From: Rhyzopertha dominica
Lineage: Eukaryota; Arthropoda; Insecta; Coleoptera; Bostrichidae
Direction of reading: 5' to 3'
DNA length: 64,000 nucleotides
Assembly: GCA_025024175.1 (NCBI GenBank)
Contig: QCXZ01000137.1
Location: forward strand, 24,242,001-24,306,000
Part shown: piece by piece, positions 1 to 57,695 of the stretch
How positions within the stretch are numbered: position 1 is the stretch's first letter
Layout: each line of letters begins with the position of its first letter
The notes under the pieces: model-generated
Told to the model about the DNA's origin: nothing
What the model saw: only the letters and a program-made list of their open reading frames with translations
The model's database searches: none
Translations under genes and position numbers: made by a program

Positions 1-132
1 GCCTTGTCTGGAGTTTGGATAACCACATCTAACGCCAAATCTACATTACCAAAAATAACTGCCCCAATGAGATCTGTCCATTTACCTTCCAAATCTTCGT
101 TGCCTTGCAATGGAAATGAAACTAATTTGTAA
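1..132 (-). CDS. IR exon 6 (S1 lobe, runs off the left edge)
   Basis: Follows a 58-base intron (133-190), acceptor TTGTTTCAG. Phase 2 joins TC|T. It encodes Y-K-L-V-S-F-P, a glycine and acidic loop, W-T-D-L-I-G-A-V-I-F-G-N-V-D-L-A, then an I-Q-T-P run matching the S1 ligand-site region (usually 'it..R'). The exon is open to position 1. Confidence 0.78.
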
Positions 133-3100: not shown

Positions 3101-6100
3101 AAAAGCTCAGTGCCCTTCAGATTGACAAATACATAGCCGTGGTGATGAGGTTTATGCGCAAAAACCGTCACTGGTGACGTGGAATAAACTAAGTATAGTT
3201 AAAAAAGGTGCCAAAAGCACGAAAGTACCTAATTCTATTGAGAGTTTTGTTTATGTTTTGTTTGTTGTAAATACAACAAATATTTAGTATATACGTAGCA
3301 ATGTACTAAATCAGTGTATAAATGTAAAATAAAAATTTACTATTTAGAAATAATGGTTATGTTATTAACATAAAAACCAAAGTGCCTGCATAACAAGCCT
3401 GTGAGAATGAGGCGAAAATAATAAGTCACCAGTTCAAAATTTTTGGTTTATTCTTTTGCGCTACTTTAATTTCGCATGATGTCGATTAGTAAAGGGAGGG
3501 CGGAATTTATATTATCATAATTACTCTTACTCTTTACTTAGACATAAATTGAATTAACAAAAAGATTACTATGGTTAGGCGGGTTTGATAAAAAATGGTG
3601 TTCTACAAGAATAAGTCTAATGGTGGTGGTTACCCAACATATCTTAAGACAATTTTTATCAGGACTTTTAGACTACAATTTACAGTCAATATGGTTTCTG
3701 GTAAAGTATTACTAATTAAAAATTTAAGTATCGTGCGCTTTGCTACGTAAGTAAATTTACAAGCAAATTTACATCGAATTTGAGTACTGTGTAATGCAAA
3801 ATTACATTTCTGTGACGTTGCCGGTTGCTATAACCTAGTCAGAGCCATCGTACAAGCATGTCAAAAATTGGCATGCCATTAAAGCAACAATGAACACCCA
3901 TTTTAGCGTCTATCTTNACAGATACTCAATAAGTGGATGTGCCAATACGACGCATGTGACGACAAAAAGAAAGAAAGTGGGCTTTGACTGAGTTATGTAA
4001 GTTATGCGCAGTCGACGTACCTACTATGTCCTAGGACAACAAAACTGATCGTTACACCAAACAATAGGTACGTAGAAAGACGCAGATATTACAATTGTGA
4101 CATCAATCTCATCAATTACTGCATAGTCACTTTGAATGCAACACACTTAAACATTAAAGGTTGTGAACCAAGCCCACTTGTGCAACTTACCTGAATAAAA
4201 AAATTGCTTGACGCGTAATGATCCTCGTGGTCCAAAATAACTACAATACCTAAGCGGCTTAGATTACTACTTGTGAAAAATAACTCGGCCAATTTATTTG
4301 GGGTACAAGCAAGCGATCGTATACTATAATCACTGAGGTGTTTCATGATCTGAAAGGAACGGGGTTGCTTACCTCCTACAAAAAAGGAATAAAATTATTA
4401 AACATGGAAGTCATTTAAAGTAGTATATTATATTTATAGCCCAAGTAACCAGGTAAACCTTAGCGCCCAAAGGTAAGGATGAAATTGTATTTTTATAATC
4501 TCCTTGTATTGAGAGCAGTAGTGATACACCGAGTTTTCTAATTGAAAACACCTACAGTATTTTTGTGGTCTAAAAATTGCAAATATAATGGGAACTGAAT
4601 GATTTTAGAGTTTTACTTGTTACTGTTTATTTAAAAAAGAATCCAATTTAAGCAAATTCGTCATTAAAACTAAATTAAACTCAATAATAAGCGAGATGTA
4701 CCATCAGGAACATATGTAGTCGTAGAGAAAAAATTGTGGTTATCTAACATTTATATTAAGGGCAGTGTACAAAAACTGAAAGAAATGAAATTAATCATGT
4801 ACGGAATGTTATGTTATAACAAAAATAATAATATTTCATAAATCATAATACTATATTTCGCAGTTTCGCAGTTTTGGAAATCAAGTAATAACGGAAACGG
4901 ATCAGAGCAGGTGTCCAGTTACCACATCAAATTGGGTCATCGTAGCTATCGCTTCTTCGCTTCATGTTCTTGGAAAGACGTTTCGCAGTAAAAATTCTGC
5001 TTAATAACGTTTTTCATTACAAGATGGTACTATTATTAGGGAACAACATTACAGCCGGGTAATAATTATATTATACTATGAAATAAATTANCTCACCTAA
5101 ACAACCCTCCTAGATCGTTCATTCTCGAAGTGCACGTGCAATTAACTGCAATTAAAGCACTGTATCCAGAGATAATAGATAACTGAGAAGAGTTTCGGAA
5201 GCTGGATCTTTAGTCATAGAATCCAAACCATGATATCAACGTACCCAGTCCCACTCTGCTAGCGTCGAACAATTAGTTAACGCTCATATCACGAACATAC
5301 AATGCCAATAAAACCCTTCTCACGCAATAGCTATTTCTTCACTGGTAACATCTATCGTCTTAAACACTTTACTTATGGAAGACTCTCCAAAGGAGTACAA
5401 CAAACAGGGAGGAAGTTTTATTGTACCTACTAAGGTTATGGACGATAAGGATAATTACCAACGAAATAATATTTGAATCATGTGGCGCAGAACAACATAC
5501 CTGGTAACACTTTCTCCCATATGTTTGTAAGAAAATGCGTGAAACGACTAAAAATGTACTGACAGTTTGCTATTATCAGATGGCTTAACGGTAGCATATG
5601 ACACTTCAATTTCTTTACGTAGCTTGTCGATTCTTGCTAGCTTATGTCGATAGGTGTACCACAGAGGTAAAGTCGAGAGGTCTCAAATCAGAAGACCCAG
5701 GTCAACATAACATTACCTCTTCGATCCACCCACTGGCTGGGTAGAGTTGAATCGAGATACTACCTGACACTTTAATGGTACTGAAGCTTCCATCTTGTTG
5801 CACGTAAAAAAATTGAACGCTATTGAAGTTTTGGATGGCATGCAAAATTTTTGTCTGAAGTCTAACCAATTACGGTACCCTCAAAAAAGGGGGCAATCAA
5901 ATTTTAATCTACAGAATATTCGGCCGAAACTTTGGAATTGGAAAACGACTTTTTACTACTGAACTCGGTATATTTAAATAAATAAAATTTTATGCACAAT
6001 GCAGAAAGACCTATTTTTAATCCATCCATGGGACTATTAGCAAATACATATTATACTAATACTCAAATATATTTTTTCTCCAATTTAGTTTGCATTTTAC

Positions 6101-13430: not shown

Positions 13431-14157
13431 ACTTCCACATCCAACGGATAGGAAGTATTGTATCGCGAAAAATTTGAGCAAAAACAAATTTCTTCTCTTT
13501 GTGTCTGTGGTTTTGTTTGTATACATGATAACTTTCGAAAGACTTAATCTATCAACTTGAAATTTGGCAAGCGTATAAATCTCAACTACCCAAAGCGACC
13601 TATTGTTTGTGGGGTAAGTAGGATATCGGAAAGAGGGGGTAAATACCCTTTCTGCAAATTTTTATTTTTTTTATATTTTTTTTCGTTTTAGTATGTGATT
13701 AGTAGTACAACTGTGAGTATTATTGGTTTTTATAAATTTTCGGTGCAGCAAACTGTTTAGAAGATATTAGCAAAAAAGCGTCACTTAAAGAAAACGGTTT
13801 TTCCTAAATATCTCCAAATATATTTAATATATTCAAAAAATAAAAATGCCATCAGATAGGAAATAAAATTTCTCACAAAAAGTGTCTTAGAAAATTTATT
13901 CAAAATTTTGACATTCTCGAAATATTTCCAAAAAACCTATTTTAGTCCCTGCTAGTACGATTTTTTTAAATTTTGGTATTATATAGAAAATAAAATTTCT
14001 AATCAGAAAGCACTCTAGTATTTTTTTTTGTTAAGTTAATAATTTTAGAGTTATTTGAAAAAAACCTATTTTAAAATTTATATATTTTTGCTAAAGACCA
14101 AGTGATTCAGGGTATGTCGACCTGTAAGCTACACGTAAAAGAGTACTCTTTTTTCTT

Positions 14158-14194
14158 AAGCTAAGCTTTCNAATTTATTTAAATTCTTCTTCAG
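14158..14194 (-). ncRNA. Hammerhead-ribozyme-like motif in PLE terminal repeat
   Basis: CTGAAGA, then A, GAATTT / AAAT / AAATTn as a hairpin, then GAAAGC-TTA-GCT. This matches core CUGANGA - stem II - GAA - stem III - UH in order, with one extra base next to the core and one unresolved base (14171). Its partner in the other terminal repeat (15759-15796) has CTGAAAA, losing the conserved G. Hammerhead motifs are known in PLE terminal repeats. Confidence 0.5.
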
Positions 14195-14357
14195 AGCATC
14201 TACAATTCAACTTAATTAATACAACAAACTATATGGAACCTTATATATACTTACAGAAATTTGAGGCTAGGTGTAAGTTATAAATATGCGCAACAGTGTT
14301 TTTTTACGAAACATAAGTTTTTTCTACCATAAATGACTTGTGTCAAATAAATTAATT

Positions 14358-14789
14358 TTAATTTGTTTTTTTTGTCATTTCCTTTGATAGCAGATATGTG
14401 TATATACTACTTAATTGTTGTGTGTCCGATTTTTTATTCATTACATTATTAATTTTGTTGATCTGGTACATTTCCAAGATTAGTCTTTTACTGTTATTAA
14501 TTTCAGTATCTAATATTTTTACCCCATCCCAATCTAGCGTGTGGTTGTTGTTGACCGCATGTGTGGCTAATGCACATCGGTCTCTTTTCATAGAAATATC
14601 GCTTTTATGCAATGATATTCTGTTCTTTACCCACTGAGATGTTTGACCCACATATATGCTATCACAAGTGTTACATTTTAAACAGTAAATTACATTGGAT
14701 TTGAATTTTGTTGGTGTTTTTGATTTTAATTTAGTAAACAAATTCGAACACTTTTTGATATTTCGTCTTGCAATTTTAATATTTTCCAA
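14358..14789 (-). pseudogene. PLE GIY-YIG endonuclease domain
   Basis: 143-codon open frame. GIY-YIG core: V-I-Y-C-L-K-C-N-T-C, then S-I-Y-V-G-Q-T, R-I-S-L-H-K, and a later glutamate in L-I-L-E-M-Y. The cysteine pair before Y-V-G-Q-T is typical of PLE endonucleases, which nick target DNA for retrotransposition. The domain itself is intact, but the element is 5'-truncated and disrupted upstream by an insertion, so it is a relic. Confidence 0.85.
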
Positions 14790-14871
14790 ATTAAATGTTC
14801 TAATAATTTTGAAGTTAATTCCGTAATATTTAGTAGTGACCCATACTTTTGTGTTTCAGCCCTATTAGTAC

Positions 14872-15068
14872 TTAAAATGCATGTCTATGCTGTGCTGTCC
14901 ACACCTCAACCAACTGCAGATAGTACTATTTCGCTGTCATTACAGCTCATCAGTGCAGTTGTTGTCTACATTAGACCTAAACTGCACTGATGAGCTGTAA
15001 TGACAGCGAAATAGTACTATCTGCAGTTGGTTGAGGTGTGGACAGCACAGCATAGACATGCATTTTAA
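14872..15068. repeat. Perfect palindrome, 89-bp arms, 19-bp loop
   Basis: Arms 14872-14960 and 14980-15068 appear to be exact reverse complements, from TTAAAATGCATGTC outward to AGTGCAGTT at the loop. Part of the same sequence occurs alone at 23380-23418, so the arm is a dispersed unit that was duplicated in inverse here. Confidence 0.85.
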
Positions 15069-15259
15069 TGTATGTTGGTTCTTGCCCGTCAGCAAAAAGT
15101 GCCGTGGGGGCCTGCTGTCAAATTGAAGTATGCAGTTGCATGCCAATTTGTCAGGCTACAGGTCACTTCCTTTAGGAAGTAGTTCCCGTTATGGCAGCTA
15201 GGTGGCGCTTTGTCATCATGTCAGTGTAACACTGACAGATGGCATTGCCATCCTAAATT
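14874..15259. mobile_element. 386 bp insert inside the PLE, with 13-bp duplication
   Basis: Flanked by CCTATTAGTACTT at 14861-14873 and 15260-15272; removing it restores the order of the PLE post-RT region. The left half is a palindrome; the right half (15085-15235) is copy 3 of the dispersed repeat found at 7.6 and 10.4 kb. The 13-bp duplication fits target-primed reverse transcription (SINE-like). No A-box/B-box promoter or poly(A) tail was recognised. Confidence 0.7.
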
Positions 15260-15758
15260 CCTATTAGTACTTGTTTGGCTTAAAACTGAATTTCTCATTC
15301 CATCGTCCACATTTCCGTTAATCCTAAGACCTACTGTTCCTTCTTCAACATGCATTCCATCATCGAGTGAAAGGCTGCTCGTGGAGTATAATATTTTATT
15401 TATAAGGCCTTTTGGGTATGAATTTTGGATTAGTAACTCTTTTAGTCTGTTTAAATTTTTGTTTAAGAAAACGGGATTTGAAATTTTCTGAATTCTGTTT
15501 TTCATTTGTTTTAGAAAATAGTTGAATGATCAGACAAAAAATTAATATATCTTCCTGAGGCTATAGGTTTTTGATACCAGTCTAATATTATACGTCCATT
15601 ATGTCGAATTACCCTAGTGTCTAAGAAAGGCACTCCACCATCAACCTCTCTCTCTATGGTGAAATGGATGTGTGGATTATACGAATTGAAAACGGTTTAT
15701 AAGTATATATAAGGTTCCATATAGTTTGTTGTATTAATTAAATTAAATTGTAGATGCT

Positions 15759-15796
15759 CTGAAAAAGAATTTAAATAAATTCGAAAGCTCAGCTTA
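15759..15796 (+). ncRNA. Hammerhead-like motif, mutated core
   Basis: Inverted partner of 14158-14194: CTGAAAA, GAATTT-AAAT-AAATTC hairpin, GAAAGC-TCA-GCT. Stem II is perfect at six pairs but the core CTGANGA has G to A, which should abolish cleavage. Confidence 0.45.
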
Positions 15797-16050
15797 AGAA
15801 AAAAGAGTACACTTTTACGTGTAGCTTACAGGTCGACATACCCTGAATCACTTCGTCTTTAAGAAACTACGACCGTCATAGTCTCCAGCTTATTTTTGCT
15901 AATATCACGAGGACTTTGTCTTAGAAAAAATGTGTTGAGAAACAAAATGCTCAAAATCTGATTACTAATTGTACAGTATAAGAAATAAAAACGTAAATGT
16001 CATTTTGACAATTGGATATGGAAGTATTGATTCAATTTGCAGCGGTTTTT

Positions 16051-30323: not shown

Positions 30324-31205
30324 AAAAAACCGCTGCAAATTGAATCAATAATTCCACATCCAATTGTCAAAATGACATTTACGTTTTTATTTATTATACT
30401 ATACGATTAGTAATCAGATTTTGGGCATTTTTCTTTCTCCACATTTTTTCTAAGACAAATAGTCCTCGTGATATTAGCAAAAATACATACATTTTTAAAA
30501 TCGGTTTTTTGCTAATAACTCGAAAATTATTAACTTAACAAAAAATTACAACAGTGCTTTCTAATCAGAAATTTGATTTTCTATACAATACCAACATTTT
30601 AAAAAAATCGTGAGAGCAGGGTCCAAAATAAGTTTTTGGAAATATTTCGAACATGTCAAAAATTTGGATAAATTTTCTAAGACACTTTTTGTGAGAAATT
30701 TTATTTCCTATCTGATGGTATTTTCGTTTTTTGAATATATTAAATATATTCGGAGATATTTAGGAAAAACCGTTTTCTTTAAGAGACGCTTTTTTGCTAA
30801 TATCATCCAAACAGTTTGCTGCACCGAAAACTTATAAGAACGAATAATACTCGTAGTTATACTACTAATCACATACTAAAACGAAATAAAAATAAAAAAA
30901 TAAAAATTTGCAAAAAGGGTAATTGCCCCCCAATTTCGCCGACTTCCCGGTAACCTACTTACCTTACAAACAATAGGTCACTTTGGGTATTTATGATTTA
31001 TACGTTTGCCAAATTTCAAGTTCATATATTAAGTCTTTCGGAAGTTATCGTATCCACAAACAAAACACAGACAAGAAATTTGTTTTTGCTCAAATTTTGC
31101 TTTTTTTTGCGTTTTCGACCATTTTAAAGCAAATGAGCAAATAAAAATTTTAAAATTTTTTTTTTGCAATACAATACTTCCCATCCGTTGGATGTGGAAG
31201 TAATT
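30324..31205 (+). repeat. 0.87 kb repeat, copy 1 (intact)
   Basis: Runs from AAAACCGCTGCAAATTG to TTGGATGTGGAAGTAATT and matches the copies at 56570-57430 and, inverted, 13429-16050 over the whole length with moderate divergence. Internal inverted sequences near the two ends suggest a non-autonomous DNA element. No coding frame shared between copies. Confidence 0.85.
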
Positions 31206-32382
31206 AACTAAACATATAGAGATTATATTGGTTCTTATTGCCAGCTGGTAGAAATTGAAAATCTTGCTAAAGTTGATATCCAGAAGCTTTTAGGGACATC
31301 ATTAAAAGACAGAACTGTTTCTGGCATACATAAGGTCGCCTCTAGAATTTAATTGTGCTGTGGGTAAGGGCACTTGAATTTACTAGGACAGTATACCCCT
31401 AACGTTTCTGTACTGCAAACCGCGTATATTCATAAACATATCTGACAAGATCGGATTGTAATCATAGTGTATAGCCAACCCACCAATTTTTAACCCCAAA
31501 TCTAAACTATTCTGATCATTTGCGCCCAGTAATAGGTTAACACCTGTAAATTACTGTTGTTTTAAAACAAAAAATCACCCATAGAAGTGCTATATAATGT
31601 CGCATATATAGCTCAGTTGGGCAGTTTGTAGCACTGTAAATAGTTCTCGAAGATGTTGAGTGTCTAGCGTATCCAAATTCTAGGTAATAGGATCGCAGCC
31701 AACTACATGCCGTAGTGACACCAAATATTAACTGCCTAGTTACTTAATACTTGTAGACCTGGCTCCCATAACACAATAGGCAATAAAATTGATGTGCTAT
31801 TTATAAATTTTTATTTGCTGTGATGACAGACCCAATGCAAATGCTGCTTAGCTTTAATTGAAGGTATGAGGTTGTGGAACAACTGTTAACTATTTTATTA
31901 CAGTTGGTGATTTTCTGTATGCACAAAAAAGCGCATCATTAAATTATCGTCAATATTTGACGATATCATAAAAGACCCTAATCAACTAGCTTTCAATATT
32001 CTTAGAAGTGGGTTTGGGAAGAAAAGTAAACAGAAAATTAGTTGTAAGTATCTATGATTTGTGAAATACTTACAAAAATGTCACAAGTAACGTACATATA
32101 TGCTTTTTCAACTTAGGCAAGGAAACACAAACATTTACGATTCAATAAGTGTACCTACATTTTTCACCCCATTCGTCATCGCTTTCTGTTTAGCACAAAC
32201 TAATCACTACTTCAAATCTATATGGAGCATTCGTCCTTCTTTGCTAGTACGTCCTTTACTCGCTTCGGAAATGCTTATCCAGTGAGCTATTATAGAAAAA
32301 AATTAAGTATGGCATGGTAACCAACATTTTATTACCGCCAGATAAATATTGATGCATAGTGCAGACCTTTGGTTTAGGTAGG
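31206..32382. other. Intergenic
   Basis: No gene or repeat recognised. A short TAGCTCAGTTGGGC at about 31609 resembles a tRNA A box but has no matching B box or cloverleaf. Confidence 0.5.
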
Positions 32383-32388
32383 TGTTCT
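32383..32388 (+). repeat. Target-site duplication TGTTCT (left)
   Basis: Abuts the AGTAGGGGG tip of the left arm; identical in sequence and orientation to 44362-44367. Confidence 0.85.
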
Positions 32389-32874
32389 AGTAGGGGGATG
32401 GTGAGACTTCTGGGTCACTCATTTGCATATTAGCCCAATCGAGCGTAATTCGCGATCAAAAATTTTTTTAATTTTCGATTATTTTTGCTGAATGTGACGG
32501 GATGAGAAATATGACGTTCATACGGTAATTAGCGAATTTATTAAGTGTCAATTATTTTTATTCGACTTTTTTGAATTTGGTGTGATGGAATGGGATGTGA
32601 ACTGTGACTGACATTTGTATTTTATACCAGCATGTTTCTGACTGAGGCTTTTACGCCCTAATGAGATGGGGGGCAATATCAGCGAAGGTGGGTTGCTGAT
32701 GTGTAATTGATATGAAATATTTATTTGCTATTACCACATATTGCTTTTGTATATAATATGCATGGCGATATGACCAATGTACTCCTAACCATTGTTATGA
32801 TATGGTGGGGGTTGGTACCGCGGTCCATGCTCTATATATAGGCAACCCCCAGGACAGGGGTAGGTGGGATTTTT

Positions 32875-32955
32875 TTTACTATGCCGAATGCTGGATTTGA
32901 ACCCGCTACCTCCGGTATGGCAGTCCAACACCTTACCGCTGCGCCAAACGCAAAC
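32875..32955 (-). repeat. tRNA-derived (SINE-like) head in left arm
   Basis: Minus strand has an A-box-like TGGCGCAGCGGTAAG (32946-32932) and a B-box GGGTTCAAATCC (32904-32893) at tRNA spacing, but the flanking bases do not form an acceptor stem. This is a tRNA-like relic or RNA polymerase III promoter of a SINE, not a functional tRNA. Confidence 0.55.
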
Positions 32956-33185
32956 TTACCTAACGGCCGTTATTATTGTCTATTTAAGAGTAGGGCCACT
33001 CATCAATTTATCATTTTTAAACTGAGATGGGATATTAGGTAAAACTTACCGCTAAGTCCGCTTAGGGAGCACATTTTGACAGTAAATGGTTAATAATTAC
33101 CTATGCCCATGTTTTTCTATGGTTTTATACTATTTTTTGTCATATTTCATACAATGGATTTTCGTTGTGGCCTGCTGGAGGGTTT

Positions 33186-33781
33186 CAATGATTATCAGTT
33201 ATCTGGAATAAGAATAAACAAATTAATATTAAGAGTATTCATAGATTTGAACCGTGATTTTGTGGCAATAACGTCAAATAACGGTTACAGCGTGCCTTAA
33301 TTGAGCTAAATAACTGTCATTTCACAACCTAGGCTAATCCACAGCAGGTTTGCGATTTCTTAAATAAATGCACTAAATAAGAATGTAAAGCCACCAGCAT
33401 GCAATGATTATCAGTTATCTGGAATAAGAATAAACAAATTAATATTAAGAGTATTCATAGATATGAACCGTGATTTTGTGGCAAAAACATCAAATAACGT
33501 TTACAGCACGGCTTATTTGAGCTAAATAATTGTCATTCCACAACCTAGGCTAATCCACAGCAGGTTTACGATTTCTTTAAAAATGCACTAGATAAGAAAT
33601 TAAAGCCACCAGCATGCAATGATTATCAGTTATCTGGAATGAGAATAAACAAATTAATACTAAGAGTATTCCTAGATTTGAAACGTGATTTTGTGGCAAA
33701 AACGTCAAATAACGGTTACAGCACGACTTAATTGAGCTAAATAACTGTCATTTCACAACCTAGGCTAAACCACAGCAGGTT
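33186..33781 (+). repeat. Tandem array, ~215-bp unit, 2.8 copies (left arm)
   Basis: Units begin at 33186, 33402 and 33617 with CAATGATTATCAGTTATCTG and share TGATTTTGTGGCAA and CAACCTAGGCTAA..CACAGC. Mirrored at 42969-43564. Confidence 0.85.
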
Positions 33782-33869
33782 CAGATAGCTGAGCAAAACG
33801 GTGAATATAAGTTTAAAATTACTAAACTAGCATAAATCTACGACTGTTAGTCAACTCTGTTTATATAAA

Positions 33870-35010
33870 AGAATGGATTTCAAATGATTGAAGTTATATT
33901 AGAATAAATGAAATACTTGCTACTATGTCTATTGAGAGTCATAGAAGGAACAAGCTGAAGACCAAAACACACACGGTAAGAATGTGTTTAAGGCAGGTAA
34001 ACTAATAAAAAACACACTATACTTCGTTGTATATCGTGATTTTGCTTTTTAACTAGTTTATGCATGCTGATTGTAATAAATAATGTTAAAATTGTCAGCT
34101 TTTTTTAACTAATTCTTTTCATCAATAAGCATATATTTCATGTAATTGTAAATAAATTGAAATTGACTTTTGTTGGTACTTTATTAAATATAATTCGCAT
34201 GTCAGTTATCAATCTTGTAGGTTGAGAAGTTGCTTGTTACCGTCATCTATCATAGCATACAGGGTATTTGATGTAATAAATAACAATCAGCTACATGCTA
34301 TTAGACTAGCAAAAATCTATGATTTCCTAAAACCACCCTCGTACTCCATATGTCGTGAACGTAGTCAATTCTGTTTACATAAAAGAATGGATTTCAAGCG
34401 ATTGAAGTAGAATTAGAATAAACGAAATTGTGTTTTCACAGCATATGGAACGTTTTAAATATATAAAAAAAAAATTGGCGAGTTTTTTCATTATTTTTGC
34501 ACTAGATTGCTTAAATTATGCCACTACATGCTTTTTTTCTCTAAAATGAGCAATACTCGTACGCTTAATTTGGAAAAATACTTGATGCTGTGTATGTAGA
34601 TAATCATAAATGGAGCAAGCTGATGAAGCACGGTAAAAATGCGTTTAAGACAACTAGACTACTGAAAAATATACTGTGTCGTACTTCGTTGTATATCGTG
34701 AATTCCCCTTTTTATTAGTTTCTGCGTGTTAATTATATTAAATAATGTTAAAATTGCCTGCTTTTTAACTAATTCTGTTCGTCTAATTGCATATATTTCT
34801 TGCGATTGAAGTAATGTACTTAAATGAGTATTGTTTGGACTTTAATAAATATAACTAGCATTTATTATATGTTGAGAAGTTTCTTATTACCGTCATCTAT
34901 CATAGCATTTAGGGTAATTGATAAATAGAAAAAAAATGACGCGATTTCCTTGTTTATCTTCCTAACACTTGCTTATTTAAATTATGACGCAGCATACTTT
35001 TTGTCTAATT
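33870..35010 (+). repeat. Diverged ~650-bp repeat units (left arm)
   Basis: Words such as CTTCGTTGTATATCGTG (34024, 34685) and CCGTCATCTATCATAGCAT (34238, 34890) recur at about 650-bp spacing, with an additional AATGGATTTCAA..GATTGAAGT pair (33873, 34387). Mirrored in the right arm at about 41740-42880. Confidence 0.6.
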
Positions 35011-35338
35011 AGCAGTACATATGTCTCTAAGTAATAACAAGAAGCAAATTGGGAGAGCAGAAGCAAACAGTCGATCAGGAACGATGAAAATGTGTTTAAA
35101 AGAACTAAACTACTCGAAAATCTACTTCATGATGTGTTATGAATAGTCTCATCAACTAGCAATCGGTATTGACATTGACTAATGTTTGATTTTAATCAAT
35201 TCTCTTTCTGTATTTTTTGCTCATATAGCATATAGAGCGTTTGACATGGATAAAAATATAACGAGATTACTTTGCCATTTTCCCTTACTTATATTGTTAC
35301 CTGTTTCTCTCTATAATATGCTATACTTATACAGGTCT

Positions 35339-35790
35339 TAATGATGGTGGGAAAAATTCATATTGCTATTATATTCATGTGATAATCTACAACAAACAAA
35401 TTGATAACCCGAAACATTTGCTGAATGAGCATCCAAATTGGTTTCGAACAAGATTATGACCATAACCAGCTGAATCGGTTGGTTGAAAGGCCGTAATCGA
35501 AGACACGGCGAGCTGTAGGGGTGAAATGGTAGCAGATAATCGCTATAAGGCATTTGCTTTCTAAAGTAATGATTGTGGGAAAAATACATATTGCTATTAC
35601 ATTTATGTGATAAAAATGTTTGATAATCTACAACAAACAAATTAAAACGAGAAACGTTTGCCGAATAAGCATACCGATTGGTTTCGAACAAGATTATGAC
35701 CATAATCAGCAGAATAGGTTGGTTGAAAGCCCGTAATCGAATACACAGCGAGCTCTAGAGGTGAAATGGTAGCAGATAATCGTTATAATA
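35339..35790 (+). repeat. Tandem pair, ~229-bp unit (left arm)
   Basis: Two units beginning TAATGAT.GTGGGAAAAAT near 35340 and 35569, each ending GGTAGCAGATAATCG. Mirrored at about 40960-41413. Confidence 0.8.
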
Positions 35791-37226
35791 CTCCTGTTTA
35801 GAACATAGTACACCTCAAATTCATCCTATTACAGCTGGAAAAAGGTTGAAATGGTAAAGTTGTGAAGAAGTTAAGACCACTTGCGTTTTTGTTTGTTGAA
35901 CATGGACTTGCATTGCTTATTCATGTGGTTTCCAAATGCGTTATCTGATCAAAACAGTCTTATGGAAATTATGCTAATCATATAGATACTTAGAGGAAGT
36001 GAGTCTAACAAATTATAGGTAACGAGAAATATAAGTGATATTTGTCGAAAAGTATTCAAATCCGTTTATATATTATCATTAAACTTATATTTCCAATATC
36101 TAAAGTCTCCTAGTTAGCTCACATTCCAAGGGAGCATTAAACTTATTGTTTAGACTGACATAAAAGCCTTAAATGTAGTATGTTGTTTGAAAACATAATT
36201 TTCTGCTATTGCTATTCAAGAACTTTAATTTGGTGAATTAACCTCCGATTAGGCAAAAGAATAACTGTAATATATATTTCATAAGTATTATTCACACTTT
36301 AACGTCGAATGAAATATGAAATTAATATTTTATTTTCTTGAAACTACCGAACTGGCCAATATCGTGCCCGTTTAGTTTGTCATTCATTTCTACATAGTGG
36401 TAGCGGAAGCTACGGGGAAGCTAAAGTAGGTACGCACTGATATTTAAATATGCATACACACGAGCTTTACACAGGAGAAACATAAGACAACAAGTAGTTT
36501 TTTTGTTCTTTAGATAACTTTTCATGCATTTTCTCCCTAAAAACTTGCACATTTATGCATTATTTTGTAAACCCAATGTATCCGTCACTGAACCCCATTG
36601 TAATAGTTAAAGCTAAAAAACGCTGTCAGTTACCTATTGTATGTCCAGCAGCATTTAATACTATTAAGGTTCTAATAACTACAATAATATATCGCAGATA
36701 TACTTTGATTTTTTAGTGCAGATATTAATGGCGATGCCTTCTTCTTCAAAATTATATCAAATTATCACGTCTTTTTACCATATTAATGGAGATCACTTTA
36801 AAAATGTCTACATATTTATTACAGAAATGAACTTCTGCCAAAAAAGGCCACCATTAGCTATTTCAAAATCGATGAGCATGTATTACATGATCGAATGATG
36901 TTTTGTTTTTTTAAAAGCCTCCAAATTTATGAAACAGTAAATACATAAATCGACAAACTAGTGTCAAATAAGAAAAGGGATCAAGTACACCCTATATAAA
37001 ATACTAAGAATTTGAACAAAAGACGTAATTTTGCGAAAAAAAATCATTGAAAATTGACAGGTAATTTTGTAAATTTATAGAAAATCGCATATTGTATGTG
37101 AAATGCGTAAATCGACAAAATTAAAGCAATAAAAGAGTGTAAATATGAGTAAAACTTGTTATTATGGTTAGTATATCCTACAGTTATTCAATTTCAGGAT
37201 AACGTGCTTTATAAATATAAAATGTT

Positions 37227-37326
37227 NNNNNNNNNNNNNNNNNNNNNNNNNNNNNNNNNNNNNNNNNNNNNNNNNNNNNNNNNNNNNNNNNNNNNNNNNN
37301 NNNNNNNNNNNNNNNNNNNNNNNNNN
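37227..37326. other. Assembly gap (100 N)
   Basis: A run of exactly 100 N at the inner end of the left arm, a conventional placeholder for unknown length. The missing DNA could hold the element's coding core. Confidence 0.95.
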
Positions 37327-39532
37327 CGTATAAAAAAAACGGTTTCGTATCAAAATTTTCGATTGTACAGCTCCAGTTCTGTGCATGAGGGGGTGTGGGT
37401 TAAGATGTGGATAGGTATCAGAATAATGGCTACTACAAAAAAATTCTTCCAAATATTTCACTTTCTATGTGTATTAAATCGGTCTATGTGTTGCTGTCAT
37501 GCTTTATAGAAAGAAAAACATCAAATCTCAAAGCATTGTTCTAAAATAATTTAACATCGTTTTAATGACGTAATAGAATATCTGTAATAAAATAATTTAC
37601 CTATCAAGGGAAGTGTGAGATATCTCAATATATTTGACTAGTTGGCTATAAACGATCGTGATCATGTTCATACTTGTTAGGTAAAGTAGGTAGGTAAAGC
37701 ATTGACAGTCATAAGAAGCCTACATAACGTATTCTTCACGTATTCGCCATGCCTCGTGGAATTTAAACTCCAATATCGGAGGGTTGTGGTTCTCTTTCTA
37801 TAAAATTACTCCAATCTCATAACAATTATGAATATTTTTCATATTAAGTCTAAATTTTCGATGAGCTATTCCTTTTTAACCTGCTTAACGCGTAGTAAAG
37901 TATTATTATTTTGGTGTAGTTGTTGGAGGAACACGTAATTTGTTGAATATAAACTACACTTCTTTGTGGTAAGTTACCTATTTTTAAAATTTGCAATGGC
38001 AGAATAATAATATATAATAATATATAATATAATAAATTTGTGCTTTTATAATTTCCTAAGAATTAATGCCAAAAAAAAGATTATATGTAGATAATTACAA
38101 GTGCTCAATAGCATGCACATTGGTATACCATTGATAAGTACAAATTCTAAAATGAAAGAGTAAATTAGCATGAATAATGACATATATCAATATTTTTTTT
38201 TGCAACGGGTTTGCTTCACAGGGTATTATACTAAGTTATGATTGCAAATACTACCTACAAGGTTAACAATAGCGTATAAATTGGTGTACTTATGTTAAGA
38301 TGTCTTACATGATTTCAGGATGGCGTATGCTATTACAAGCAAAACTATTTTGTTACAAGATTATCCTGTAGGGAACGCTTAGATAACAAATTTCCACGTC
38401 GTGGATATAAGTTAAAATGGGACAAACCTAAAAACAGGGGTGAGTTGTGATATTAATCTTGGCAGTGTCTCAAGTTCCTCTTTAAAATAAATGGTTTAAG
38501 TTATTTTAAGATTCGCTTAAAGAAAAAGTATTGTCATAATATGATGCAGTTGAGTTCTTTAGCAACTATTCCATATTATCCAATAAAAAGTCTGGTAAGT
38601 GCTGAACGCAGTGTTTATTAACCCTAAACAAACTACATGGTTATTAAGATTTAGAGTTTTCGGATAATTAACTACCTAATTCATGATTGTTCTTATCTTT
38701 CAGGTGCGTCGTACACTTCATAATATGCACAATATCCATCAGCAAGATTGGCTTTAAAATGTTACACACTGAATAAATAAATATTTAACCTAAAATTAAT
38801 TAAGATTAATACATTCCTACTGAGGGAACCAATGATATCTGACATTATAACCAATCAGAGGCAGTACTGAAGTTTCCTAAGTGAATGAAATGCACCTGTA
38901 CCTGCAGTTAAAGGTTAATAAAGTGTATGTCGCTATGTCAATCTAGGTCTCAGGTGGGAATTCTTATTGCCTTAATTTGGAAAAAAAAAAAAATGTCAAT
39001 AACGCTTCTAGGTCACTGAAAAAGTATACCGTTGCGTAGCAAGAACATAAAGGTTCAGATCGAGTTTGCCCACATTTTTAAATGAATTGTTTCACATTTA
39101 CACCTAATGTAAGTAGTCATGCAGGTACTGATCTTTCCGGAATATATTAAAGCTAACCTTTTTAGCTCGAGACAAGTTGTTTTTGTCTAAGATCTGCTGT
39201 TATGGGTTAAGAGTAATAACAAATCGCCTCTTTCATGTCCATGTAATTAGAATGGCAACGCTATTGTGTACTTATCTTGACAATAAACTTCGTCAAAAGA
39301 ACATTTCACTTATTTATGCTTCTGAATTTTCGTTAATCTTGATTTATTTAAAATCATTACATTATAACAAGACAGCCTTCTCGGGTGCATTAAGGGCAAT
39401 GTGTAGTATACGGCGGTAACAAGGAGAAGTAATTTATGTTTGATTTTGGCTAATGTGAGATGGGTTCCTCTGCGATATACTGTACGGTAGGTTGTGAAGG
39501 GGAAAATTTCCTTAGGCATGCTTTCCATAGTA
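37327..39532. other. Centre of the 12 kb element
   Basis: AT-rich, with an AT-repeat near 38004-38036 (TAATAATATATAATAATAT). No open frame above about 80 codons and no recognised domain. Confidence 0.6.
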
Positions 39533-40959
39533 AACATTTTTATATTTATAAAGCACGTTATCCTGAAATTGAATAACTGTAGGATATACTAACCATAATA
39601 ACAAGTTTTACTCATATTTACACTCTTTTTATTGCTTTAATTTTGTCGATTTACGCATTTCACATACAATATGCGATTTTCTATAAATTTACAAAATTAC
39701 CTGTCAATTTTCAATGATTTTTTTCGCAAAATTACGTCTTTTGTTCAAATTCTTAGTATTTTATATAGGTGTACTTGATCCCTTTTCTTATTTGACACTA
39801 GTTTGTCGATTTATGTATTTACTGTTTCATAAATTTGGAGGCTTTTAAAAAACAAAACATCATTCGATCATGTAATACATGCTCATCGATTTTGAAATAG
39901 CTAATGGTGCCTTTTTTTGGCAGAAGTTCATTTCTGTAATAAATATGTAGACATTTTTAAAGTGATCTCCATTAATTGGTAAAAAGACGTGATAATTTGA
40001 TATAATTTGAAGAAGAAGGCATCGCATTAATATCTGCACTAAAAATCAAAGTATTATCTGCGATATATTATTGTAGTTATTAGAACCTTAATAGTATTAA
40101 TGCTGCTGGACATACAATAGGTAACTGACAGCGTTTTTTAGCTTTAACTATTACAATGGGGTTCAGTGACGGATACATTGGGTTTACAAATAATGCATAA
40201 ATGTGCAAGTTTTAGGGAGAAAATGCATGAAAAGTTATCTAAAGAACAAAAAAACTACTTGTTGTCTTATGTTTCTCCTGTGTAAAGCTCGTGTGTATGC
40301 ATATTTAAATATCAGTGCGTACCTACTTTAGCTTCCCCGTAGCTTCCGCTACCACTATGTAGAAATGAATGACAAACTAAACGGGCACGATATTGGCCAG
40401 TTCGGTAGTTTCAAGAAAATAAAATATTAATTTCATATTTCATTCGACGTTAAAGTGTGAATAATACTTATGAAATATATATTACAGTTATTCTTTTGCC
40501 TAATCGGAGGTTAATTCACCAAATTAAAGTTCTTGAATAGCAATAGCAGAAAATTATGTTTTCAAACAACATACTACATTTAAGGCTTTTATGTCAGTCT
40601 AAACAATAAGTTTAATGCTCCCTTGGAATGTGAGCTAACTAGGAGACTTTAGATATTGGAAATATAAGTTTAATGATAATATATAAACGGATTTGAATAC
40701 TTTTCGACAAATATCACTTATATTTCTCGTTACCTATAATTTGTTAGACTCACTTCCTCTAAGTATCTATATGATTAGCATAATTTCCATAAGACTGTTT
40801 TGATCAGATAACGCATTTGGAAACCACATGAATAAGCAATGCAAGTCCATGTTCAACAAACAAAAACGCAAGTGGTCTTAACTTCTTCACAACTTTACCA
40901 TTTCAACCTTTTTCCAGCTGTAATAGGATGAATTTGAGGTGTACTATGTTCTAAACAGG

Positions 40960-41413
40960 AGTATTATAACGATTATCTGCTACCATTTCACCTCTAGAGC
41001 TCGCTGTGTATTCGATTACGGGCTTTCAACCAACCTATTCTGCTGATTATGGTCATAATCTTGTTCGAAACCAATCGGTATGCTTATTCGGCAAACGTTT
41101 CTCGTTTTAATTTGTTTGTTGTAGATTATCAAACATTTTTATCACATAAATGTAATAGCAATATGTATTTTTCCCACAATCATTACTTTAGAAAGCAAAT
41201 GCCTTATAGCGATTATCTGCTACCATTTCACCCCTACAGCTCGCCGTGTCTTCGATTACGGCCTTTCAACCAACCGATTCAGCTGGTTATGGTCATAATC
41301 TTGTTCGAAACCAATTTGGATGCTCATTCAGCAAATGTTTCGGGTTATCAATTTGTTTGTTGTAGATTATCACATGAATATAATAGCAATATGAATTTTT
41401 CCCACCATCATTA
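40960..41413 (-). repeat. Tandem pair, ~229-bp unit (right arm)
   Basis: Reverse complement of 35339-35790. Confidence 0.8.
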
Positions 41414-42968
41414 AGACCTGTATAAGTATAGCATATTATAGAGAGAAACAGGTAACAATATAAGTAAGGGAAAATGGCAAAGTAATCTCGTTATATTTTT
41501 ATCCATGTCAAACGCTCTATATGCTATATGAGCAAAAAATACAGAAAGAGAATTGATTAAAATCAAACATTAGTCAATGTCAATACCGATTGCTAGTTGA
41601 TGAGACTATTCATAACACATCATGAAGTAGATTTTCGAGTAGTTTAGTTCTTTTAAACACATTTTCATCGTTCCTGATCGACTGTTTGCTTCTGCTCTCC
41701 CAATTTGCTTCTTGTTATTACTTAGAGACATATGTACTGCTAATTAGACAAAAAGTATGCTGCGTCATAATTTAAATAAGCAAGTGTTAGGAAGATAAAC
41801 AAGGAAATCGCGTCATTTTTTTTCTATTTATCAATTACCCTAAATGCTATGATAGATGACGGTAATAAGAAACTTCTCAACATATAATAAATGCTAGTTA
41901 TATTTATTAAAGTCCAAACAATACTCATTTAAGTACATTACTTCAATCGCAAGAAATATATGCAATTAGACGAACAGAATTAGTTAAAAGCAGGCAATTT
42001 TAACATTATTTAATATAATTAACACGCAGAAACTAATAAAAAGGGGAATTCACGATATACAACGAAGTACGACACAGTATATTTTTCAGTAGTCTAGTTG
42101 TCTTAAACGCATTTTTACCGTGCTTCATCAGCTTGCTCCATTTATGATTATCTACATACACAGCATCAAGTATTTTTCCAAATTAAGCGTACGAGTATTG
42201 CTCATTTTAGAGAAAAAAGCATGTAGTGGCATAATTTAAGCAATCTAGTGCAAAAATAATGAAAAAACTCGCCAATTTTTTTTTTATATATTTAAAACGT
42301 TCCATATGCTGTGAAAACACAATTTCGTTTATTCTAATTCTACTTCAATCGCTTGAAATCCATTCTTTTATGTAAACAGAATTGACTACGTTCACGACAT
42401 ATGGAGTACGAGGGTGGTTTTAGGAAATCATAGATTTTTGCTAGTCTAATAGCATGTAGCTGATTGTTATTTATTACATCAAATACCCTGTATGCTATGA
42501 TAGATGACGGTAACAAGCAACTTCTCAACCTACAAGATTGATAACTGACATGCGAATTATATTTAATAAAGTACCAACAAAAGTCAATTTCAATTTATTT
42601 ACAATTACATGAAATATATGCTTATTGATGAAAAGAATTAGTTAAAAAAAGCTGACAATTTTAACATTATTTATTACAATCAGCATGCATAAACTAGTTA
42701 AAAAGCAAAATCACGATATACAACGAAGTATAGTGTGTTTTTTATTAGTTTACCTGCCTTAAACACATTCTTACCGTGTGTGTTTTGGTCTTCAGCTTGT
42801 TCCTTCTATGACTCTCAATAGACATAGTAGCAAGTATTTCATTTATTCTAATATAACTTCAATCATTTGAAATCCATTCTTTTATATAAACAGAGTTGAC
42901 TAACAGTCGTAGATTTATGCTAGTTTAGTAATTTTAAACTTATATTCACCGTTTTGCTCAGCTATCTG

Positions 42969-43564
42969 AACCTGCTGTGGTTTAGCCTAGGTTGTGAAAT
43001 GACAGTTATTTAGCTCAATTAAGTCGTGCTGTAACCGTTATTTGACGTTTTTGCCACAAAATCACGTTTCAAATCTAGGAATACTCTTAGTATTAATTTG
43101 TTTATTCTCATTCCAGATAACTGATAATCATTGCATGCTGGTGGCTTTAATTTCTTATCTAGTGCATTTTTAAAGAAATCGTAAACCTGCTGTGGATTAG
43201 CCTAGGTTGTGGAATGACAATTATTTAGCTCAAATAAGCCGTGCTGTAAACGTTATTTGATGTTTTTGCCACAAAATCACGGTTCATATCTATGAATACT
43301 CTTAATATTAATTTGTTTATTCTTATTCCAGATAACTGATAATCATTGCATGCTGGTGGCTTTACATTCTTATTTAGTGCATTTATTTAAGAAATCGCAA
43401 ACCTGCTGTGGACTAGCCTAGGTTGTGAAATGACAGTTATTTAGCTCAATTAAGGCACGCTGTAACCGTTATTTGACGTTATTGCCACAAAATCACGGTT
43501 CAAATCTATGAATACTCTTAATATTAATTTGTTTATTCTTATTCCAGATAACTGATAATCATTG
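42969..43564 (-). repeat. Tandem array, ~215-bp unit (right arm)
   Basis: Reverse complement of 33186-33781 with the same unit boundaries. Confidence 0.85.
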
Positions 43565-43794
43565 AAACCCTCCAGCAGGCCACAACGAAAATCCATTGTA
43601 TGAAATANGACAAAAAATAGTATAAAACCATAGAAAAACATGGGCATAGGTAATTATTAACCATTTACNGTCAAAATGTGCTCCCTAAGCGGACTTAGCG
43701 GTAAGTTTTACCTAATATCCCATCTCAGTTTAAAAATGATAAATTGATGAGTGGCCCTACTCTTAAATAGACAATAATAACGGCCGTTAGGTAA

Positions 43795-43875
43795 GTTTGC
43801 GTTTGGCGCAGCGGTAAGGTGTTGGACTGCCATACCGGAGGTAGCGGGTTCAAATCCAGCATTCGGCATAGTAAA
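43795..43875 (+). repeat. tRNA-derived (SINE-like) head in right arm
   Basis: Mirror copy: A box near 43804-43818, B box GGGTTCAAATCC at 43846-43857. The two heads face away from the centre, pointing toward the element's ends. Confidence 0.55.
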
Positions 43876-44361
43876 AAAAATCCCACCTACCCCTGTCCTG
43901 GGGGTTGCCTATATATAGAGCATGGACCGCGGTACCAACCCCCACCATATCATAACAATGGTTAGGAGTACATTGGTCATATCGCCATGCATATTATATA
44001 CAAAAGCAATATGTGGTAATAGCAAATAAATATTTCATATCAATTACACATCAGCAACCCACCTTCGCTGATATTGCCCCCCATCTCATTAGGGCGTAAA
44101 AGCCTCAGTCAGAAACATGCTGGTATAAAATACAAATGTCAGTCACAGTTCACATCCCATTCCATCACACCAAATTCAAAAAAGTCGAATAAAAATAATT
44201 GACACTTAATAAATTCGCTAATTACCGTATGAACGTCATATTTCTCATCCCGTCACATTCAGCAAAAATAATCGAAAATTAAAAAAATTTTTGATCGCGA
44301 ATTACGCTCGATTGGGCTAATATGCAAATGAGTGACCCAGAAGTCTCACCATCCCCCTACT

Positions 44362-44367
44362 TGTTCT
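44362..44367 (+). repeat. Target-site duplication TGTTCT (right)
   Basis: Abuts the CCCCCTACT tip of the right arm; the pair implies insertion of the whole 12 kb as one unit. Confidence 0.85.
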
Positions 44368-44469
44368 TTTAGGTAGCATTATATTTACAATCAATTGGTA
44401 TTAAAACAAATTAANAGGTTTTNACTTATAAAACACATCTCCATAATTGAACTCGATGGAATTTTCGCA

Positions 44470-44503
44470 GACGTTTCGCCACACGTAACTGGTGCATCTT
44501 CAG
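44470..44503 (-). ncRNA. Hammerhead-like motif at PLE 3' end
   Basis: CTGAAGA (44503-44497) then TGCAC, a loop, GTGTGGC and GAAACGTC (44477-44470). Both core blocks match the consensus; stem II is imperfect by eye. Very similar in layout to 2494-2460. Confidence 0.45.
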
Positions 44504-44549
44504 TGCTGTTAAGCTGCTAACTGGATAGTCCGATGACAAGAACGGGTCT

Positions 44550-44927
44550 TTATCCCTTGTTTGATGGGTTGAAAGATTTGTTCCGACTGGATGCTTTTCG
44601 ACGCGTTTCGTCCTGTTTGTTGCCTAACGCTGGTTTCAATGTGCAACTGTTGTGATACCCCTCGCCTCTGTTGAGGTTATTCAGATGTAATATTGCCAGG
44701 GCTTCTCTCGGGACCAAGTTGTCGAAACCATTAACTTTTGTCAGAACGGTGGTATCACCAAAACTAACGGTGTGTTCTTCCGTTAGGGCGTGATCTGCCA
44801 ATGCCATCCTCTCAGGTTGTTTCAGACGCAGACATCTCTCGTGTTCTGTTTTTCGTATGTTGATGGAACGCTTGGTAATACCTACGTATACCTCGGGGCA
44901 ATCTCCACAATAGAATCCTATAAACAC
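44550..44927 (-). pseudogene. PLE GIY-YIG endonuclease (frame-shifted at its start)
   Basis: About 120 codons: C-G-D-C-P-E-V-Y-V-G-I-T-K-R-S, then a histidine helix T-E-H-E-R-C-L-R-L and a late glutamate, P-R-E-A-L-A-I-L. The G-V-Y strand just upstream lies in another frame, so one frameshift near 44900 separates it from the rest. Confidence 0.82.
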
Positions 44928-45680
44928 CTGTGTTTACAAAGGGTGCAGTTTGGAACTACGTAGTACTTGGCTGACTTTGGTTGGTGGCATCAACGACCTG
45001 TTGTAGGCCTTGTTAGCAGGAGACAAGGAAGCGTGCGATTCTCTTCCACCTCCATGACGAACCTGATGCTGTCGTGGAAACTGGTTAGGTGTTCTCAGAA
45101 GACAGCAACGATTTTATATCCATGTGGCCAAACGATGAACGTATCATCGACGTAACGTAGCCAGCACTTCGGTTTATACGGTTCAGTGTGTAGACGATCT
45201 TCTTCGAAGTATTCCATGAAGAAGTCAGCGACAATCGGACTGATTGCTGCCCATAGCGACGCCATTCTTTTGTTTCTAGTAGGTCCCATTCAATAAGAAG
45301 TATATGGAAATTAGACACAGGTTGAACAAGGTGATCGTGAGGTCGTCGAACTATTCTTTCAGTAGTGCTACGGTGGATTTCACAGGAACTTTGGTGAATA
45401 GAGATTTCACGTCGAAACTAACCAGGATGTCTTCCGGATCCAGTTGCATGCCATTGATGATCTCGACAAAATATTGAGAGTTCCTGATGTGGTGATTTAC
45501 CTACTAGAGGTTTCAGAAGTCTTGTAAGGTGTTTGGCGATGAGTTGTAAGGGATCTCCCTTCTTGTGAATTTTAGGTAGACCGTAGTGTCTAGGTGAACG
45601 GCTGCAGGTGGGAATCAGGTTCTTGACGGTGTTGATGTTCCATTCTCTTGCTTTCAGTAATTCTGTAACCTGTAACGAGC

Positions 45681-55578: not shown

Positions 55579-57695
55579 GAAATAATAATAATAACGTCTT
55601 TATTTAAGGCATAGTCTGGCACAATTGCCATTCAATTTACCCCAAAGTACAAAAAAAGAAAAAGTATGAAAATGGATACTATTAAAGTAACAAAAAAAGA
55701 AACAATGCTTATGTATACATGCACGTAATAAACTAAATTACGATGTATTAGATGCTTTTAACAGAAAGTTCCTTAAACGTATTTTAAAACAACCCTGATT
55801 ATAGTTTTTTTTTTGACGGGAGTCATCTAAAGAATTAAACAGCTTGACAGCATTAAACGAAAAAAAGCGCTGAAACAAAGCCTTCCTACGCTTAGGAATT
55901 GTTAAGGACATAGGCTTTCGTATATCTAAATTATGAACTGCATTACGTGGAATTAACTTATTATGTAGATATCCAGNCAGAAGTGCTGAGTACTCTTATT
56001 ATGAACAAAACAAATTGATACTTCAACAAGTCTTACAATTTAAGCCATGATAACTGTATAAAAAAACTAGATATGAGATCATACTTTCTTAAGTTGTTAA
56101 TAAATCTGCAGCAAGTGTTCTGAATTTTCTGAAGCCTACCACAGTTAAGAACATCAAGACAAGGAAAGTAAATTACATCACGATATGAGACTTTAGACAT
56201 AATTAAACTCTCAAACAACATTTTCTCATTGCATCATGATTTAAGGCTCTTTTGTTTGCATATACCACTTTCGGCTTAAAGAAACATTGCTTGCTTACCT
56301 CAGAAACTTGTTCAGTAAACCTTAAATTTTCATCAACAGCTAAGTTGTTTTACCACTTACAATTAATGACAGATTTGACTTCAAAAAAATCTTTATACTT
56401 TTTCCGACAAACAAGTAGCAGTTTAGATTTATCTGGATTTCAGACTAAGCTATGATCATCTACATATTTACTGATGAGTGCAAGATCTTCATTAATATTA
56501 TTCATAGCTGTTTTGTGAGTAGGTACTCCGTACCTTTGAGTGTGTGACAATGTGAGCAGTATATAGTACAAAAACCGCTGCAAATTGAATCAATACTTCC
56601 ACATCCAATTGTCAAAATGACATTTACGTTTTTATTTCTTATACTATACGATTAGTAATCAGGTTTTGAGCACTTTTTTCTCTGCACATTTTTTCTATGA
56701 CAAACAGTCCTCGTGATATTAGCAAAAATATATAAATTTTAAAATCGGTTTTTCCAAATAACTCAAAAATTATTAACTTACCAAAAAAAAACAAGAGTGC
56801 TTTCTGATCAGAAATTTGATTTTTTATTTAATACCAAAAATTAAAAAAAATAGGTTTTTTTACAAATATTTCGAAAATGTCAAAACTTTGGATAAATTTT
56901 GTAAGACACTTTTTGTGAGAAATTTTATTTCCTATCTTATGGTATTTTCATTTTTTTGAATATATTAAATATATTCGGAGATATTTAGGAAAACCCGTTT
57001 TCTTTAAGAGACGCTTTTTGATAATATCTTCTAAACAGTATGCTGCACCGAAAATTTTTAAAAACTAATCATACTCGCAGTTATACTACTAATCACATAC
57101 TAAAACGAAAAAAAAATAAAAAGATAAAAAATTGCAAAAAGGGTAGTTACCCCTTAATTTCCACCTTCCCGATATCATACTTACCTTACAAACAATAGGT
57201 CGCTTTGGGTAGTTGACATTTATACGCTTGCCAAATTTCAAGTTCATATATCAAGTCTTTCGAAAGTTATCGTGTTCACAAACAATACCGTAGACACACA
57301 GACAAGAAATTTTATTGCTTAAATCTTGTTTTTTTGCGTTTTCGACCATTTTAAAGCGAATGAGCAAATAAAAAATTTTGAAAATTTTTTCGCGATACAA
57401 TGCTTTCCATCCCTTGGATGTGGAGGTAATAACAGTGGTCCAAGTACGGAACCCTGTGGCATACCAGACTGTATTAATTTTGGTGTCGAAAGCTGATTAT
57501 TTAGATGTAAGTGTTGACATCTGCAGTCTAAATAGCTTTCAATGAACCTGCAGGCAAGATTATTAAATCAGAAATATTTACATTTTGCTATTAACAGTTT
57601 GTGGTTAATGGTATCAAACACTTTTCTAAAATCCAAAAACACTGCTATGGTAGCAAGTCCCTCGTCCAATGCTCTGAGAAAGGTAAATTATTTTC
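55579..57695 (-). mobile_element. LINE (jockey/CR1-like), 5'-truncated and interrupted
   Basis: Minus strand: A-V-F-L-D-F-R-K-V-F-D-T-I-N-H-K-L-L (57640-57590), a fingers segment, then G-M-P-Q-G-S-V-L-G-P-L-L (about 57475-57440); after the repeat at 56570-57430, F-V-L-Y-T-A-H-I, N-P-D-K-S-K-L-L-L-V (about 56430) and the C-terminal L-Q-K-I-Q-N-T-C-C-R-F-I (56150-56100). The canonical A-D-D box was not found and stops occur, so it is dead. The 3' end (55579-55610) has AATAAA-like and (TTA)n tail sequence. Confidence 0.82.
56570..57430 (+). repeat. 0.87 kb repeat, copy 2, inserted in the LINE
   Basis: Matches 30324-31205 over its length. It interrupts the LINE reverse transcriptase within one conserved motif; the LINE reading resumes in the same frame on the other side. 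No clear target duplication could be set. Confidence 0.85.

Follow-up and report, generated by a model that had tools for sequence, protein, structure and literature searches.

A 64,000-nt window of the Rhyzopertha dominica assembly GCA_025024175.1 (contig QCXZ01000137.1; all coordinates below are positions in this window) contains a long mobile element, probably palindromic throughout, that belongs to a family of at least 19 paired copies in the same genome. The copies share AGTAG tips and target-site duplications of exactly 6 bp. Interiors were read for 13 copies, and ten of these have an unbroken contig running from one arm across the centre into the other. The genome also harbours an element that encodes a protein-primed-type DNA polymerase (PolB) and ends in AGTAGT. 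We favour, at a probability of roughly 0.62, the reading that this is a multi-copy palindrome family without recognisable genes, likely inserted by the integrase of a Polinton/Maverick element of the same genome and with its second arm likely recopied from the first.

The features of the window's own copy are given below. Other copies are referred to by labels; C53a, which has a full arm of 8,279 bp, served as the yardstick.

32383..32388, + strand: target-site duplication TGTTCT, left copy
44362..44367, + strand: target-site duplication TGTTCT, right copy
32389..37226, + strand: left arm as assembled, 4,838 bp, truncated by the gap; matches C53a arm bases 1-4815 at 99.2%
37227..37326, no strand: 100-N assembly gap
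37327..44361, - strand: right arm as assembled, 7,035 bp; matches C53a arm bases 7008-1 at 99.0%
32389..32393, + strand: left tip AGTAG, common to 19 of 19 paired copies
44357..44361, - strand: right tip AGTAG (CTACT on the + strand)
32422..32433, + strand: subterminal motif TTTGCATATTAG, left arm
44317..44328, - strand: subterminal motif TTTGCATATTAG, right arm, placed from the arm-to-arm match
33186..33781, + strand: 2.8 tandem units of 215 bp, left arm
42969..43564, - strand: 215-bp tandem units, right arm
35339..35788, + strand: second tandem pair of the arm, about 84% over 223 bp

A first-pass annotation of the window had described a 12-kb element with near-identical inverted arms of 4.8 kb, making up 80% of its length, around a 2.2-kb middle. 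Alignment of 32389-37226 with the reverse complement of 39533-44361 gave 99.59% identity over 4841 columns and thus bore out the near-identity of the arms; both tips directly abut TGTTCT, and the AGT/ACT tips are confirmed, as is the 6-bp duplication. Of the 25 mismatched columns, 20 fall in the 690 bp next to the gap, where most reflect runs that are one base longer or shorter. In their outer 4.15 kb the arms show a single substitution (33337/43413), two Ns and two T runs that differ in length by one base. Equal 6-mers at two set positions arose by chance in 225 of 400,000 random pairs. The dimensions did not survive. The final base of the left arm adjoins the 100-N gap, and the supposed middle (37327-39532) is inner right arm, matched at 98.2-98.3% by both C53a arms in the stretch that follows immediately on their match to the left arm; a unique 2.2-kb middle is thereby ruled out, and the reported proportions are an artefact of the assembly gap. 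Since the gap cuts the left arm at its final base, 4.8 kb is a minimum arm length and the right arm measures at least 7,035 bp; the 12-kb length of the element is the assembly value. The sequence behind the gap appears to comprise the inner part of the left arm, the centre and the innermost part of the right arm. Compared with C53a, this copy would lack about 3.4 kb on the left-arm side of the centre and about 1.2 kb on the right-arm side, and by the same analogy the full length is likely about 16.5 kb. Beyond the duplication, the 9-mer TTTAGGTAG occurs on both flanks (32368-32388 and 44362-44382), so that an empty site would carry a short imperfect repeat.

The outer 200 bp of the element served as query against the assembly from which the window comes (479 Mb, 138 contigs). 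Family counts are lower bounds, as 40 of 115 first-look candidates were scored. At least 56 matches were obtained. We interpret 40 as element ends, namely both ends of 19 inverted pairs and two single ends, and the remaining 16 as additional partial hits within or adjoining those ends. The annotation's suggestion of a family therefore stands, with at least 18 paired copies besides the window's own. AGTAG was present at both ends of all 19, and the direct repeat was exactly 6 bp in every case, with no other length found among 2-12 bp; the 19 copies carry 19 different duplications. The 18 other copies all have boundaries that coincide with AGT tips and a 6-bp duplication. Paired ends were identical at 39 or more of 40 bases inside the boundary and at 7-17 of 40 outside it. 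The boundary script took AGTAG as a boundary condition; BLAST boundaries, which were free of this condition, fell exactly at AGTAG in 13 of the 19 copies and 1-7 bases outside it in the other six. The matching duplications at 19 unrelated sites rule out an ordinary local inversion and agree with the earlier proposal that the whole element moved as one unit. Two single ends also begin with AGTAG; they had no partner among the matches listed and were excluded from the count. Supporting the status of C136b as an insertion, this copy interrupts an open frame, and the portion of that frame on the left flank has a reverse-transcriptase match (PF00078, E 3.4e-19, profile from position 36); the copy seems to have landed inside a retrotransposon. 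Frames abut C136b on both sides (L013:2-523, - strand; L014:7846-8268, - strand); the right-flank frame had no Pfam match and by eye may be the other half.

The tips have a mosaic make-up, in which AGTAG is followed by one of a few blocks and then by TTTGCATATTAG at +31 or +34 in 19 of 19 copies. The sixth base is G or A, so that a full (AGT)2 is not attained in the palindromes. An extra copy of TTTGCATATTAG lies 47 to 335 bp further in in 16 copies. It is absent from the window's own copy, C53a and C3a, which are mutually closest and whose tip aligns with the inner unit of C1a. The exact 26-base tip was found in no viral contig searched.

Assembled spans range from 6.8 to 24.1 kb in 17 copies. 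The ends of C137b (L044, L045) are 67.5 kb apart and those of C64b (L042, L043) 184.8 kb apart, with matching 6-bp duplications; perhaps contigs were scaffolded wrongly into a palindrome there, or the inserts are very large. Interiors were read for 13 of the 19 copies (C64b, C137b, C136e, C136f, C137a and C3c were left out), with the reading of C64a and C136d covering the central 10 kb. Long arms were paired in all 13, as far as assembled. The unbroken contigs across the centre are those of C53a, C41a, C136c, C3b, C1a, C75a, C41b, C53b, C64a and C136d, and a gap conceals the centre in the remaining three (the window's own, C3a and C136b). The paired arms measure about 7-8.3 kb in most copies and about 5.3 kb in C41b. 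In C53a, pairing extends to base 8,246 and leaves a loop of about 62 bp; about 960 bp is repeated by the two contigs across its gap, so the true length of C53a would be nearer 16.6 kb than 17.6 kb. One arm of C136c is about 970 bp longer than the other. Within the 10 kb read of each, neither C64a nor C136d has genes of its own that would account for its longer span: in C64a, arm sequence is repeated around the gap, several kb at the contig ends, and C136d contains a nested retrotransposon-like frame. This 1,183-aa frame (L049:2-3550, - strand) lies in the left arm and resembles what we take to be a BEL/Pao-type retrotransposon polyprotein.

Consistent with the non-autonomous appearance noted in the annotation, Pfam gave no match above the cut-off, to the Polinton genes for protein-primed PolB, integrase and capsid or to any other family, for 23 open frames chosen from those listed for the window's element. 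The same was true of three longer frames, one from each of three regions: the innermost 1.2 kb of the arm, which is known only from other copies, and the inserts of C41b and C136c, of which the longest frame was taken. The longest frame in the 8.3-kb arm encodes 138 aa, a length equalled or exceeded in 18 of 500 simulations, and a search of a protein collection returned no homologue of it. On these negative results a coding element was rejected. Rfam had no match in the whole window, nor in 32380-39532. By eye, a tRNA-like stretch lies at 32890-32950, with a mirror in the right arm and a B-box-like word on the minus strand; it was called by neither ARAGORN nor Rfam and is perhaps a captured SINE head.

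PF03175, the protein-primed-type DNA polymerase family, matched at 64 places in the genome, all above the cut-off, and in none of 14 control genomes. Stop-free open frames of 879-1,301 aa occupy 23 of these places, and none of the 64 lies inside the spans of the 19 paired copies. One PolB element, C41:37210457-37228345, has AGTAGT tips, the duplication AACGTT and a terminal inverted repeat (TIR) that extends over 360 bp or more with 99.2% identity; a second copy has an identical right tip and a different flank. We call it a putative Polinton on the strength of its polymerase and length and of its tips, TIR and duplication. Its tips and duplication match those of vertebrate Mavericks, for which 6-bp duplications and (AGT)2//(ACT)2 as the commonest ends are reported (PMC8097293). 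The palindromes resemble Polinton/Maverick elements, as the annotation had suggested, in their AGTAG tips and their exactly 6-bp duplications, and PolB matches abound in the same genome; they differ in having palindrome arms of about 5-8.3 kb, as against TIRs of 46-1,447 bp given for intact vertebrate Mavericks (PMC8097293). As the defining genes were not found, we file the family as a Polinton-ended, foldback-shaped, non-autonomous palindrome and not as a Polinton. Integration likely works as in a Polinton, and the copies were probably moved by one.

The arms are homogenised within each copy. Substitutions between the two arms amount to 0.03-0.47% in 11 of 11 copies, whereas left arms of different copies are 0.15-0.59% apart within three sister sets and 2.0-7.7% apart elsewhere (2,156-4,686 aligned bases per pair). 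Eight pairwise comparisons yielded not a single site at which left matched left and right matched right. Sites changed in both arms outnumbered those changed in one by 133 to 2 between the window's own copy and C1a, 125 to 12 between the own copy and C136b, 81 to 10 between C136c and C3b, and 38 to 8 between C75a and C41b. Copies vary in their number of 215-bp units, but 9 of 10 have as many in one arm as in the other.

We infer a mechanism in which a Polinton integrase would recognise the AGTAG ends and join them to the target at positions staggered by 6 bp. A single strand of the element, either displaced or extrachromosomal, could fold back over its full length; if synthesis then ran from the open end of this hairpin round its loop, a single template would yield both arms and so keep them identical; protein-primed replication, which keeps terminal repeats identical, offers a parallel. 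Gene conversion from arm to arm may add to the likeness.

That likeness could instead be due wholly to post-insertion gene conversion of the kind that acts in chromosome palindromes, with replication uninvolved, an alternative that we regard as possible and take seriously. Perfectly paired long arms are good conversion substrates. Arm differences are patchy in C41a (P 0.00025) and C136b (P <0.00005) and not in C41b, in a test made on these three copies with the column totals of two rounded by hand. The patchiness suggests that gene conversion or recombination, as distinct from whole-arm copying, also acts. What speaks against conversion as the sole cause is the dominance of both-arm changes between related copies (own-C1a, C136c-C3b and C75a-C41b), which is a direct result of whole-arm copying at transposition and for which conversion would need to be nearly complete in every copy.

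Several observations besides this patchiness weigh against Polinton-driven insertion with recopying of the second arm. Among close relatives, one-arm sites exceed both-arm sites: 21 to 1 for C41a-C53b, 12 to 2 for own-C53a, 54 to 8 for own-C3a and 38 to 6 for C53a-C3a; in the trio of own copy, C53a and C3a, many of these sites cluster beside contig ends, where run-length errors abound. The arms of C136b carry 4 and 6 of the 215-bp units. In the own copy, C3a and C136b the assembly does not cover the centre. Three further copies become lopsided towards it: C41b beyond about 5.3 kb of pairing, and C41a and C53b in having the loop region on one side only. The ends of the PolB element, the single one for which both ends were measured, share AGTAG alone with the palindromes, and neither TTTGCATATTAG nor any longer similarity. 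The 138-aa frame, finally, is longer than those of 482 of the 500 simulations.

A more specific form of the favoured reading, which we put forward tentatively, is a one-ended hairpin replicon: a Polinton satellite without recognisable genes that would borrow both the protein-primed polymerase and the integrase, copy its own folded strand round a loop and thereby rebuild the two arms from a single template in each cycle. Adenovirus defective genomes are symmetric, arise as an inverted duplication of one end and are maintained by the protein-primed replication of a full-length relative. The palindromes would resemble them as symmetric molecules sustained by the protein-primed system of a full-length relative, and such a replicon might, by analogy, be their genomic counterpart. 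The defective genomes differ in being viral DNAs, whereas the palindromes are integrated copies with target duplications, known from sequence alone.

An ordinary Foldback element, mobilised by a Mutator- or P-type cut-and-paste transposase and with arms grown by tandem duplication and kept alike by conversion, appears unlikely. The shape fits, since long inverted arms containing tandem repeats define the Foldback structural class, and the patchy differences in two of the three copies tested are in keeping with conversion. The closest counterpart is Galileo copy 112 of Drosophila willistoni (P superfamily), reported as 9,021 bp long with TIRs of 4,246 and 4,680 bp that fill nearly all of it, with internal tandem repeats of about 140 bp and without a transposase (PMC4168063). 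Arms of 4-5 kb are thus already known, and the annotation's view that the arm size lay outside known elements does not hold. Copy 112 and the palindromes alike consist almost solely of two long inverted repeats, contain tandem repeats and lack a transposase. However, extended TIRs are described for three copies of that family, copy 112 being the longest, whereas 13 of 13 palindrome interiors read were long-armed, and Galileo duplications in D. willistoni are given as 7-8 bp with the consensus GTATTAC (PMC4168063), against 6 bp and 19 different sequences here. Tetris of Drosophila virilis likewise has tandem units, of about 220 bp, in its arms, and is reported to be without coding capacity, with its helper unknown; its authors assigned it to Mutator (PMC4079207). 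It differs from the palindromes in the variable middle domain that separates its arms and in duplications of 8-10 bp (PMC4079207), and the duplications of Tm1 are reported as mostly 9 bp (PMC3169594). The exact 6 bp in 19 of 19 copies and the AGTAG tips throughout therefore argue against all of these. Among elements with shorter duplications, IS3EU/GingerRoot fits in its 6-bp duplication and not in its ends, given as TA..TA or, in GingerRoot, occasionally TG..CA (PMC10045372). Dada, reported to have a 6-7 bp duplication and no TIRs and to target small RNA genes (PMC3706591), is excluded by the long inverted ends of the palindromes and by the absence of Rfam matches in the window.

An assembly artefact, in which palindromic reads or a collapsed repeat gave a false second arm, is very improbable: 100-N gaps in 11 of the 13 read copies and repeated sequence at contig ends (C53a and C64a) would suit it, but the flanks of each copy are unrelated and yet share a matching 6-mer in 19 of 19, C136c and C41b have no long gap, and the 215-bp unit numbers and substitutions are specific to each copy.

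In the literature searched we found no palindrome of this kind with Polinton ends. The term 'non-autonomous Polinton' and its variants were absent from the open-licence literature searched, and 'palindromic transposon' and similar terms led there to no such element, judged by titles and the beginnings of abstracts.

Elsewhere in the window, an inserted element at 14092-15861 has 162-bp inverted ends (95.7%) and a 206-bp palindrome at 14869-15072. It contains a frame with a GIY-YIG domain (14358-14855; Pfam E 6.2e-06), the one found among seven frames outside the large palindrome that were included in the Pfam run, and looks like a Penelope-type element. It splits a copy of a repeat that is also present at 30325-31208 and 56570-57433. 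Frames at 44426-45417, beside the palindrome, look by eye like the C-terminal part of Penelope; the two tested had no Pfam match.

If the favoured reading is true, Polintons possess palindromic satellites, and the two arms of each insertion record whether one template made both. Genome sequence alone would then provide evidence on how elements of the Polinton type replicate, and the breaks in the assembly at these loci would be explained. Long palindromes of this kind may also cause chromosome rearrangement, as reported for Galileo (PMC4168063).

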